DNA of 64,000 nt from Arthrobacter sp. OY3WO11 (GTDB lineage: Bacteria; Actinomycetota; Actinomycetes; Actinomycetales; Micrococcaceae): the NCBI RefSeq assembly GCF_001641125.1, contig NZ_LWLP01000001.1, forward strand, positions 582,147-646,146, in the 5' to 3' direction. The first letter of the stretch is position 1. Each line of letters starts with the position of its first letter. A model generated the notes under the pieces. The model made no database searches. It was not told where the DNA came from and saw only the letters and a list, made by a program, of their open reading frames with translations. This document shows positions 6,114-10,902 of this stretch, piece after piece. The translations under genes were made by a program, and so were the position numbers.

Positions 6114-7858
<1,745 letters not shown>

Positions 7859-7883
7859 TTTCTTCCAAGCCCTCGGAGACCCA

Positions 7884-8363
7884 GTGATCATCGAAAAAGT
7901 CCTCGGCAACCTGCACGAACTCCCGGACCCGGATACCTATGCCAACCTGCACCAGGAGAAAGTGGTGCTTCCCAGCGCCCAGCTGGTCAAACGGATCCAA
8001 CGCGCCACCACGGACCACGGCAAGGAAATCGGCATCCGGCTCCCGTCCGGCTCCGGCGACCTGCGCGACGGGGACATCCTGCACGTCGAGGACGCCAACA
8101 TGATCGTGGTGTCCGTGCTGCCCACCGACGTCCTGGTGATCGCACCGCGGACCATCCACGAGATGGGCGTCGTGGCACACTCCCTCGGCAACCGGCACCT
8201 CCAGGCCCAGTTCTTCGACGGTGCTTCGGAGTACGGGGCCGAGGTCATGGTGTGCGCCTACGACCACACCGTCGAGGACTACCTTCTCCACGTGGGTGCG
8301 CCCTACTCCCGGCAGGAACGCGTCATGCCCGTTCCTTTCCGCCATGCTGAACATTCGCACTAA
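7884..8363 (+). CDS. ureE: Urease accessory protein UreE (nickel metallochaperone)
   Basis: A 159-residue UreE that delivers nickel to the apo-urease complex. The N-terminal domain (MIIEKVLGNLHELPD) and the C-terminal metal-binding region with MGVVAHSLGNRHLQAQFFD are recognisable. It lacks the long histidine-rich tail found in some UreE proteins and ends FRHAEHSH. The start is GTG, 25 nt after ureC. A repeat element lies between this gene and ureF. Confidence 0.94.
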   Translation: MIIEKVLGNLHELPDPDTYANLHQEKVVLPSAQLVKRIQRATTDHGKEIGIRLPSGSGDLRDGDILHVEDANMIVVSVLPTDVLVIAPRTIHEMGVVAHSLGNRHLQAQFFDGASEYGAEVMVCAYDHTVEDYLLHVGAPYSRQERVMPVPFRHAEHSH

Positions 8364-8393
8364 ACCCCTCCCCGTTTCCCCGGCTTGGGACGC

Positions 8394-8516
8394 CGCGAGG
8401 GATATGGGGCCGTGCCCGTCCCCAGGCGCTCCCAATCCTCGCAAGCTCGGATCGGGGCCCTCGCGCCAGTGGGCCCCTCGCGCGGCCCGCCACGCCGCGG
8501 CCCCATATCCCTCGCG
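8394..8516. repeat. Urease-operon repeat, copy 1, with 21-nt terminal inverted repeats
   Basis: The 99-nt core 8406-8504 matches 9936-10034 at 92 of 99 positions by direct count. In this copy the ends extend into 21-nt arms (8394-8414 and 8496-8516) that pair at 20 of 21 positions, reading CGCGAGGGATATGGGGCCG outward. An internal pair GGGGCCC/GGGCCCC flanks a 10-nt loop. It fills most of the unusually long ureE-ureF gap in an otherwise tight operon. It has no coding signature; it may be a MITE-like or REP-like element or an RNA structure in the polycistronic message. Confidence 0.85.
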
Positions 8517-8549
8517 TCGCTTGCGCTTCTCACCTTGGGCGCGGCTTCA

Positions 8550-9218
8550 GTGAGCGGGTACCAGCTGGCGCTGCAGCAGCTTGGCGATTCCGCTTTGCCT
8601 ACTGGGGCCTTTGCTCACTCTCTTGGTTTTGAGACTTATGTCGACGCCGGTGTGGTCCGTGATGAGGCTTCTTTTGGAGTGTGGTTGTCCGCGTTCATCT
8701 TTCAGTCGCTTACTTACTCTGACGGGTTGGCCATCCGGTTCTTCTATGAGGGTGTTGACCTCGGTGAACTCGATGCTCTGCTCTCGGCGTCGCTGCTGCC
8801 GCGGCAGGTCCGGGAAGCCAGCGTCAAGATGGGCTTGCGGCTGCTCGAGATCGGGGCGGAGGTCTTCCCGTCGCCGGAGCTGGAACTGTACCGGGACCTG
8901 GTGACCACCGGCCGGGCCGCGGGGCACCAGCCGCTGGCGTTCGCCGTCGTCGCCCGCTCCCTGGGAGTGCCGCTGCCGGAAGCGCTCGCCGCCTACCTTT
9001 TTGCCACCGTCACCTCTTTGACGCAGAACGCCGTCCGCGCCATCCCGCTCGGCCAGAACGCCGGCCAGCGGCTGCTTCGGCAGGCGGCCGACGGCGTTGC
9101 TGCCGCCGTCGAACGGATACCGCACCTGACGCCGGACGACTTCGGGGCCGTCACCCCCGGACTGGAAATTTCACAAATGCGGCACGAACGCCAACGTGCC
9201 CGGATGTTCATGAGCTGA
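8550..9218 (+). CDS. ureF: Urease accessory protein UreF
   Basis: The conserved UreF start [20 protein letters not shown] lies at about residues 8-27 if translation begins at GTG 8550, giving 222 residues, normal for the family. The frame is open back to TTG 8385, but that extension would be encoded by repeat copy 1 and has no UreF character. No convincing ribosome-binding site precedes GTG 8550, so the element may have replaced the original leader. UreF is the GTPase-regulating part of the UreDFG activation complex. The body through [20 protein letters not shown] is typical. Confidence 0.9.
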
Positions 9219-9244
9219 CCGTGTTTATAAATTCAGGAGGAACC

Positions 9245-9862
9245 ATGGCTGAACCCATCAAAATCGGCATCGGCGGACCCGTCGGGGCGGGCAAGACCCA
9301 GCTCGTGGAGCGGCTCACCCGGCACATGAGCGGCGAGATCTCCATGGCCGCCATCACCAACGACATCTACACCATCGAGGACGCCAAAATCCTGGCCGCT
9401 AACGGCATCCTCCCCGTGGACCGCATCATTGGCGTCGAAACCGGCGGCTGCCCGCACACCGCCATCCGCGAAGACACCTCCATGAACACCGCCGCCATCG
9501 AGGAACTCAAAGCCCGCCACCCGGACCTGCAGGTCATCTTCGTCGAATCCGGCGGCGACAACCTCTCCGCCACCTTCAGCCCCGAACTCGTGGACTTCTC
9601 CATCTACATCATCGACGTGGCCCAGGGCGAAAAGATCCCCCGTAAAGCCGGCCAGGGCATGATCAAGTCCGACCTCTTCATCATCAACAAAACCGACCTC
9701 GCACCCCACGTCGGTGCCGACCTCGCAGTCATGGAAAGGGACTCCAAGGAATTCCGCGGAGCCAAGCCGTTCTGCTTCACCAACCTCAAAACCGACGAAG
9801 GGCTCGACGCCGTCATCGAATGGGTACGGCGCGACGTCCTGATGCTCGACCTGGCCTTATGA
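9245..9862 (+). CDS. ureG: Urease accessory GTPase UreG
   Basis: A 205-residue SIMIBI-class GTPase that powers nickel insertion. The P-loop [11 protein letters not shown] is at about residues 8-18; [17 protein letters not shown] carries the Cys-Pro-His metal motif; [13 protein letters not shown] and [14 protein letters not shown] (G4 motif) follow. ATG 9245 is chosen over 9221 because AGGAGGA sits just upstream at correct spacing. Its stop overlaps the ATG of ureD (ATGA). Confidence 0.97.
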
Positions 9863-10902
9863 GCACGACGGCGGCCGCAACTCAGACGATCCCGGCACCA
9901 GAGTCCGGGCTGGGTCCGGCGGCTTCGCCGAATTTGGGGCCGTGCCCGTCCCCTGGCGCTCCCAATCCTCGCAAGCTCGGATCGGGACCCTCGCGCCAGT
10001 GGGCCCCTCACGAGTGCCACCACGCCGCGGCCCCCAAATCCGGCCTCGCCGCCTCTGCAGTCAGGTCACCGATGGGCGAGCTGGAGCTTCGGGTCGCCGT
10101 GCGTGGTCAGAGGTCCGTGGCCGCGCATCAGTATCATCGGGGCGCCTTGAGGGTGTTGAGGCCGCACTATCTCGATGACTCGGGGCAGGTTTGTTATGTG
10201 GTCGTGAATCCTGGCGGGGCCTATCTTGGCGCTGATCTTTTCCTGCTGGATGTTGAGGTTGCTGACTCTGCCTCTTTGCTGCTGACTACCCAGTCCGCTA
10301 CGAAGGTGTACCGGACTCCTGGATCCTTCGCCGAGCAGCGGATGAACCTCCGGCTGGGGGAGGGGGCCCGGCTGGAGCTCATGCCGGACCAGCTCATCGC
10401 CTACCGGGAGGCCAGCTACCGGCAGCACACGCACATCACTGTGCGGCCGTCGTCGTCCCTGGTCATGGCTGAAGTGGTGACTCCGGGATGGTCGCCGGAC
10501 GGGGCCGCCTTCCGGTACGAGGAGGTCCGGCTGCGCAACAGCATCCGGGTGGAAGGACCGGACGGAAACCGGCTCCTGGCCCTGGACAACCTCCTGATCC
10601 GGCCGCCGGCAGGCGACGTCACGGGCATGGGGTTCATGGAGGGCTTCAGCCACGTGGGCTCGCTGCTGGTGGTGGATCCACGGGTGGACCAGGCGCTCGC
10701 CGACGACCTGAACGCCCTGGCCCCGGACCACGGTGCCCGCACCGGCATTTCCCTGACCCGTACGGTTTCGGGGACCACCGGCCTGGTACTGCGCGCCCTG
10801 TCCAACAGCACGGGGGAACTGAACAACCTGCTTGCTGCCTGCACGTCCCTCCTCCGGAAACGGTGGCACCGGCAGGAACCGCTGAACCTGAGGAAGCACT
10901 GA
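9859..10902 (+). CDS. ureD: Urease accessory protein UreD with repeat-encoded N-terminal insert
   Basis: UreD scaffolds UreF and UreG on apo-urease. The conserved body begins about residue 72 ([16 protein letters not shown]) and continues through [24 protein letters not shown] and [17 protein letters not shown] to the end. ATG 9859 overlaps the ureG stop, the expected coupled start, and yields 347 residues. Residues about 26-58 are translated from repeat copy 2, whose 99-nt core is exactly 33 codons without a stop. Alternatively translation starts at ATG 10072 (276 residues, normal UreD length) and the repeat is untranslated, but that ATG has no clear ribosome-binding site. Family certain, start unresolved. 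Confidence 0.9.
9918..10053. repeat. Urease-operon repeat, copy 2, inside the ureD reading frame
   Basis: The core 9936-10034 is the second copy of the 99-nt element at 8406-8504. Outside the core the flanks are different from those of copy 1 but again complementary to each other: GGCGGCTTCGCCGAATTTGG on the left (9918-9937) roughly pairs with CCAAATCCGGCCTCGCCGCC on the right (10034-10053). So the outer stem is kept while its sequence differs. In the ureD frame the core is open. Confidence 0.85.

Follow-up and report, generated by a model that had tools for sequence, protein, structure and literature searches.

The urease operon of Arthrobacter sp. OY3WO11 carries two copies of a palindromic repeat that probably belongs to a family of mobile or recombining coding palindromes, in which arms of ~12-20 bp surround a conserved core and which would work in free-living actinobacteria much as the Rickettsia palindromic elements (RPE) do. 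Members of this family are dispersed in Arthrobacter-type Micrococcaceae, keep the reading frame and their own structure, turn over between related species and, in one case, have been copied within a genome; they appear to persist as a mobile or recombining selfish repeat.

The two copies were located in a 64,000-nucleotide stretch of the genome (hereafter, the window), where both cores are 99 nt long and, as the original prediction had it, identical without gaps at 92 of 99 positions (Table 1). That prediction also credited copy 1 with arms pairing at 20 of 21 positions; the arms are complementary, but a recount yields 18/21 Watson-Crick pairs (19/21 with G-U) and, counting outward from the GGGG/CCCC pair, 16/16 and then 18/20. 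A 14/16 arm match like that of copy 1 was reached by 0 of 200,000 random pairs of window segments. The arms of copy 2 are unlike those of copy 1 (8/16 and 5/16 positions identical) and pair with each other, as proposed, but well only after a one-base shift: 11/12, 16/20 and 17/21 positions are paired in a register one base off the ends of the 99-nt core, and 5/9 in the unshifted register, which is not unusual (P 0.08). Predicted folding of both copies is stronger than that of 200/200 dinucleotide shuffles (z -4.97 for copy 1 and -4.26 for copy 2). Pfam identified UreE, UreF, UreG (CobW/HypB/UreG), UreD and UreC around the two copies and gave no match for the leader ORF that contains copy 1, and a scan of positions 7800-10300 with the Rfam 15 covariance models returned no match up to E 1. 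A whole-genome DNA search with the core found two full-core places and two partial matches, a low copy number of two full-length copies.

Table 1. Coordinates of the two urease-operon elements and the reading frames that contain them (window positions).
Feature	Positions	Strand	Remarks
Left arm, copy 1	8390-8405	+	Pairs with 8505-8520; 14/16 pairs, 12/12 beside the core; arm positions covary (45 long elements)
Core, copy 1 (99 nt, long form)	8406-8504	+	Between ureE and ureF, within ORF 8344-8553
Nested 58-nt repeat module, copy 1 loop (TCCCC...GTGGGCCC)	8419-8476	+	Net +57 nt relative to the short form, which is without the module
Right arm, copy 1	8505-8524	+	Included in arm pairing count
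Leader ORF (69 codons + stop)	8344-8553	+	ATG inside ureE, through copy 1, to TGA (8551-8553) overlapping the ureF GTG
ureF (GTG restart)	8550-9218	+	Pfam PF01730, E 1.1e-41
ureD ORF (347 aa)	9859-10902	+	ATG overlaps ureG stop; copy 2 is codons 26-59, N-terminal of the UreD domain (residues 114-318)
Left arm, copy 2	9916-9935	+	Similar arms at ureD of other species and near a dodecin gene
Core, copy 2 (99 nt, long form)	9936-10034	+	In frame in ureD
Nested 58-nt repeat module, copy 2	9949-10006	+	Module also found on its own at other loci of the genus
Right arm, copy 2	10035-10055	+	Included in arm pairing count

The comparative sample consisted of 107 urease operons of the genus, that of the window and 106 fetched; of the 121 genus genomes, 14 lacked a ureG match at E <= 1e-60 and contributed no operon. 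An element finder allowing cores of 36-110 nt and 2 and 3 end mismatches, with which decayed copies are missed, located 129 elements in the 107 operons, 60 at the ureE-ureF junction and 69 at the ureG-ureD junction. The finder core is 2 nt shorter than the 99-nt core of the original prediction, and two operons had no ureD match, leaving 67 of the 69 ureG-ureD elements testable for frame.

At ureE-ureF, 60/60 elements lie within an ORF that starts inside ureE; this leader ORF ends within 12 nt of the ureF start in 57 of the 60 and is fused to ureF in the other three. The expected frame, set by ureE and not picked for openness, contains 0 stops in 2964 codons, versus 7/2961 and 57/3020 in the other two forward frames. 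At ureG-ureD, 66/67 elements fall in the open ureD frame, with a start near the ureG stop in 62, and stops number 4/3857 in the expected frame versus 85/3852 and 95/3857 in the other two. The ureG-ureD exceptions are L051 and four operons from one region of the tree (L077, L109, L118 and L126), in which a later ureD start may be in use. Spacing tells a similar story: ureG-ureD distances are multiples of three in 62/67 occupied and 35/38 unoccupied junctions, and ureE-ureF distances leave a remainder of 1 modulo 3 in 56/60 occupied and of 2 in 41/47 unoccupied junctions. The element itself is read in ureD in all three forward frames (32, 20 and 2 of the 67 testable cases) and inverted in 13. 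Both window copies are thus probably not intergenic, and the original prediction, which took them to separate accessory genes, had not considered that both sit in a conserved open reading frame. Judging from this conservation of frame, the codons encoded by the element are presumably translated. Openness of the core in all six frames was considered as a special trait and discarded as evidence, because shuffles are equally open: it does not exceed what composition would produce (P 0.36 and 0.55 for the core, 0.018 and 0.46 once the arms are included).

These frame data bear directly on whether the family might be a REP- or MITE-like intergenic repeat unrelated to translation. Copies in the grpE-dnaJ spacer, after glpK and near a dodecin gene would suit such a repeat, but the depletion of stops in the expected frame and the spacing modulo 3 at both urease junctions, together with in-frame copies in argD and in the linker of a PTS protein, make it highly improbable.

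The ureF start is split at most occupied ureE-ureF junctions, whereas at most unoccupied ones the frame continues into ureF from inside ureE; L087 has a split ureF start without an element. Among 42 element-free operons with a short ureE-ureF spacer, 35 read from a start codon inside ureE straight into ureF, 2 are fused although no start was recognised, 3 have a stop close to the ureF start and the remaining 2 show neither arrangement. The spacer is long in 5 other element-free operons.

A GTGA, ATGA or TTGA overlap marks the ureF start in 51/60 occupied junctions, and this tight overlap with the leader-ORF stop is what one would expect of a translated regulatory hairpin, melted by ribosomes on the leader ORF or on the 5' end of ureD so as to set the yield of UreF and UreD through translational coupling. 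The covariation of the stems and the repeated occupation of both urease junctions (60 and 69 elements across the 107 operons) also accord with this mechanism. We nevertheless consider it distinctly unlikely, given that the element is absent from many relatives, that 13/69 ureG-ureD copies are inverted, that the same family occurs in unrelated genes and that coupled starts exist without an element (e.g. L087 and L050). The related proposal that the element might tune the urease proteins (UreE/UreF/UreD) as an RNA is weakened by its absence in close relatives.

Constraint on the elements acts on the nucleic acid. Departures from the consensus track nucleotide columns and not codon position 3, whichever frame is read, and the difference profiles of the two main frames are correlated (rho 0.79 for short and 0.68 for long elements). 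Conservation at the peptide level was ruled out, as the differences fall column-wise across frames. Alignments took 67 distinct sequences of the 84 short elements and 45/45 long ones. In the 45 ungapped long elements 96.0% of cells are paired, versus 85.9% in shuffles and 41.6-45.8% in slid controls, and the covariation score of 0.288, versus 0.120, was reached by 0/500 shuffles, which leave relatedness in place. Double changes occur at 17/32 pairs of the long elements, inner stems included, which covary as well as the arms do (pairs 34-74 and 45-58), and at 9/19 pairs in the short elements (n=67). Further pair types in the long elements are not above shuffles (29 versus a mean of 30.2; 453/500 shuffles at least as high). 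Over arm positions 1-14 the mean paired fraction is 0.73, versus 0.49 in shuffles (shuffle maximum 0.53); since entire arm types recur, the arm cells are not independent of one another. Among 100 distinct arm pairs, each of positions 1-10 is paired in a fraction of 0.70-0.98, versus 0.46-0.82 in shuffles. Imperfect arms, with <=9/12 positions paired, are found in 45/129 elements in a fixed register and in 23/129 with shifts of up to 2 permitted. The contention that the outer stem is kept while its sequence changes is therefore borne out by covariation, in both the arm and the stem tests across the urease elements.

The urease elements come in two lengths, with finder cores of 40 nt in 84/129 and 97 nt in 45/129. 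The difference amounts to 19 codons, the long form having a 58-nt module in place of 1 nt, and both lengths preserve the frame. The module is also found alone elsewhere in the genus, with the same ends by eye, in 18 of 20 fetched loci (2/20 are without it), and the long form is therefore read as a short form whose loop contains another dispersed repeat. By eye, the lone module directly follows a TAA or TAG triplet in ~10/18 loci (L289-L308); it is sometimes tandem (L294 and L303), and in this genome it lies at about 1400-1600 of locus L003.

The family is not restricted to urease, a possibility ruled out by copies in argD, a PTS linker, cysD and non-coding sites. Gene names outside the window were recognised by us from the sequence and not by family search. 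A pattern scan of named genomes returned 22 loci, all titled Arthrobacter, Paenarthrobacter or Pseudarthrobacter, and a pattern scan of the family 16/295; the pattern used for both had one extra free base and mainly matched a one-base-longer sub-type. By our reading, 22/22 named loci are in frame: 13 forward and 6 inverted in argD, and 2 inverted and 1 forward in a PTS linker. The argD copies lie at the N-terminus and the PTS copies in a fructose PTS protein, in the linker that joins its EIIA and EIIB parts. Among the matches listed, the element also occurs in cysD N-termini and in an acyltransferase-like linker; 4 loci of this survey gave no element with its finder. A survey of argD starts flagged 5/30 loci, the element in L256-L260 being missed through the choice of start; the length of element-free argD starts varies. 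Non-coding copies occupy the grpE-dnaJ spacer, the stretch after glpK and a spot beside the dodecin gene, and after glpK in some relatives the arms and element form a terminator-like hairpin with a T run (L144).

Several further copies were observed. Searching this genome with a covariance model added a third copy, a distant short form that lies after glpK and has long complementary arms (L216, about 1060-1135; G000:C1:2430063-2430130). One grpE-dnaJ spacer from another genus of the family holds two inverted, unlike short copies (L236, about 987-1068 and 1272-1354), and two genomes without a ureG match (G043 and G087) have a short element beside a dodecin gene (L166 and L171). A second palindrome, of GGTCGAGC...GTCGAGACC type, seems to be read in frame in the argD start slot, with the peptide VVELVET or close to it (L272, L274, L275, L279 and L281-L283), and is present in urease spacers of species without the element (L057, L069 and L113); these permissive slots seem to be open to several repeats.

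Searches of taxonomic range with a short-form model used stricter filters and E <= 0.01, so that weak copies are missed and some weak matches are perhaps due to chance. They matched 92/121 genomes of the genus, 39/295 genomes in the family sample (6/32 genera, own genus counted) and 9/198 genomes in the order sample, of which 6 belong to the own genus and 3, at E 0.005-0.01, lie outside the family and are probably chance matches. A wide distribution is not supported by these searches. Of 150 matches listed for the genus, 84 are at urease junctions and 66 elsewhere, a concentration in the urease operon that would not be expected if the repeat were purely selfish.

Occupancy, orientation, form and arms all change quickly. 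On a four-gene tree built by a quick method, with 54/104 inner branches starred, occupancy requires a minimum of 17 changes at ureE-ureF and 24 at ureG-ureD, orientation 12, and form 15 and 19. The 7-nt arm label requires 34 and 40, with no shuffled-label control behind these counts and, as the labels are 7 nt long, with single substitutions inflating them. The original prediction pointed to relatives for empty sites, and urease junctions without the element do exist; both are empty in L038, the closest of the sampled species (92% identity across the concatenated genes). By eye, L128 compared with L132, and L137 with L126, look like deletions in which short repeats or arm remnants remain.

The suggestion of a non-autonomous mobile unit holds as far as dispersal and copying are concerned: in genome G117 an 87-nt unit at ureG-ureD recurs, identical at 87/87 positions, at the unrelated spot beside the dodecin gene. 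A similar unit is shared at 84/85 nt between G043, which has no ureG match, and G001. Against a mobile family stand its low copy number in this genome and the fact that neither a target-site duplication nor active movement was identified; the empty/filled pairs compared by eye contain deletion remnants and no clear duplication.

An alternative is that the element itself is immobile and that homologous recombination within the conserved ure genes exchanges whole urease spacers among species. The neighbouring species L132 and L134 differ across the whole spacer, and UreG across the genus sample is 86-99% identical to that of the window, both of which agree with this account, and part of the turnover may indeed be whole-spacer exchange. 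As a full explanation it is doubtful, since neither the identical unit found at an unrelated locus of one genome nor the copies in genomes without a ureG match would follow from it.

Alternatively, template switching in the hairpin could regenerate complementary arms on site, in which case a change of arms needs no new element copy. Such repair has been proposed for coding palindromes elsewhere (PMC6649704), and the 44 different 8-nt arm combinations among the elements, with pairing above shuffles at positions 1-10, would fit it. However, arm types recur across sites and species as units extending past the stem, and about five of the 129 elements look chimeric by eye (L065, L068, L085, L086 and L120, the call for L085 resting on one mismatch), with the left arm of one type, the right arm of another and the mismatch kept. 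We regard template switching as unlikely. In those five elements with mismatched arms, a core recombination between two types of element seems to have taken place, and the arms can travel with the core, as the identical arms at unrelated loci illustrate, so that a mechanism building complementary flanks, which the original prediction had raised, is not needed as a default.

For the mobile or recombining coding palindrome that we favour, new copies would arise by copying of the whole armed unit, existing copies would swap halves by recombination within the conserved core, and copies would vanish by deletion. Selection would then retain frame-keeping copies where extra residues are tolerated, as in N-terminal extensions of translationally coupled genes and interdomain linkers, and would also retain copies in non-coding sites such as a terminator. 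A more speculative reading, which we rate as quite improbable, makes the element an exchangeable translated hairpin cassette, usable on either strand and in several frames, with arms replaced wholesale, and kept at coupled starts since translation through the hairpin sets downstream yield; if it were true, cassette swapping would be how different species tune UreF and UreD (and ArgD).

Stand-alone coding palindromes have been placed in Rickettsia, Wolbachia, an archaeon and mitochondria in reports including PMC2229807, PMC6649704 and PMC2996958. A family in free-living high-GC soil actinobacteria informs which gene positions accept such insertions, and the 107 operons, in which the same slots are found empty, filled, flipped or chimeric, amount to a natural experiment in the conversion of selfish DNA into protein sequence. 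For annotation, the starts of UreD, ArgD and CysD in this group can bear extensions encoded by the repeat, which also makes up most of the small ORF before ureF. Among the matches listed in searches of open-licence literature for Arthrobacter or actinobacterial repeats and coding palindromes, none describes this family in its title or at the start of its abstract.

Among known systems, REP are characterised in PMC12306157 as short, multi-copy palindromes near gene ends, usually extragenic and of 14-40 nt in E. coli, and REP counts are tabulated there for Arthrobacter livingstonensis. The urease elements depart from this description, being longer, in a conserved frame and few (4 DNA matches in the genome, 2 of them partial), although the nested 58-nt module alone looks REP-like. 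The enterobacterial RU and ERIC are small hairpin repeats, some with open frames and intragenic (PMC2229807, PMC2759123); they belong to other taxa, and the terminal repeats and duplicated targets tabulated for such repeats in PMC2229807 were not identified here. PARCEL are tandem coding palindromes, with one such ORF noted in PMC2996958 on an Arthrobacter chlorophenolicus plasmid, and are set apart by description, as they form tandem domains in one plasmid ORF whereas the elements here are single, dispersed and in chromosomal housekeeping genes. Palindromic insertions that stand alone and in frame are also cited in PMC2996958 for housekeeping genes of other lineages, Wolbachia and Methanocaldococcus jannaschii.

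The nearest likeness is to RPE, hairpin repeats of ~105-146 bp given in PMC2229807 as both intergenic and in frame in protein genes. Like RPE, the elements form hairpins, with a short unit of 87 nt, somewhat below 100-150 bp, and long forms that fold well and measure ~131-139 nt with arms; they are inserted in frame in conserved genes (ureD, the ureF leader ORF, argD, the PTS linker and cysD) and are also found outside genes (the grpE-dnaJ spacer and after glpK). Unlike RPE, they are of low copy number in high-GC, free-living actinobacteria, combine a conserved core with changeable, covarying arms, use the same slot in both orientations and several frames, and fall into two length classes with a nested second repeat. 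By description, and not by sequence, the family would thus appear to work like RPE as these are portrayed in PMC2229807 and PMC6649704.
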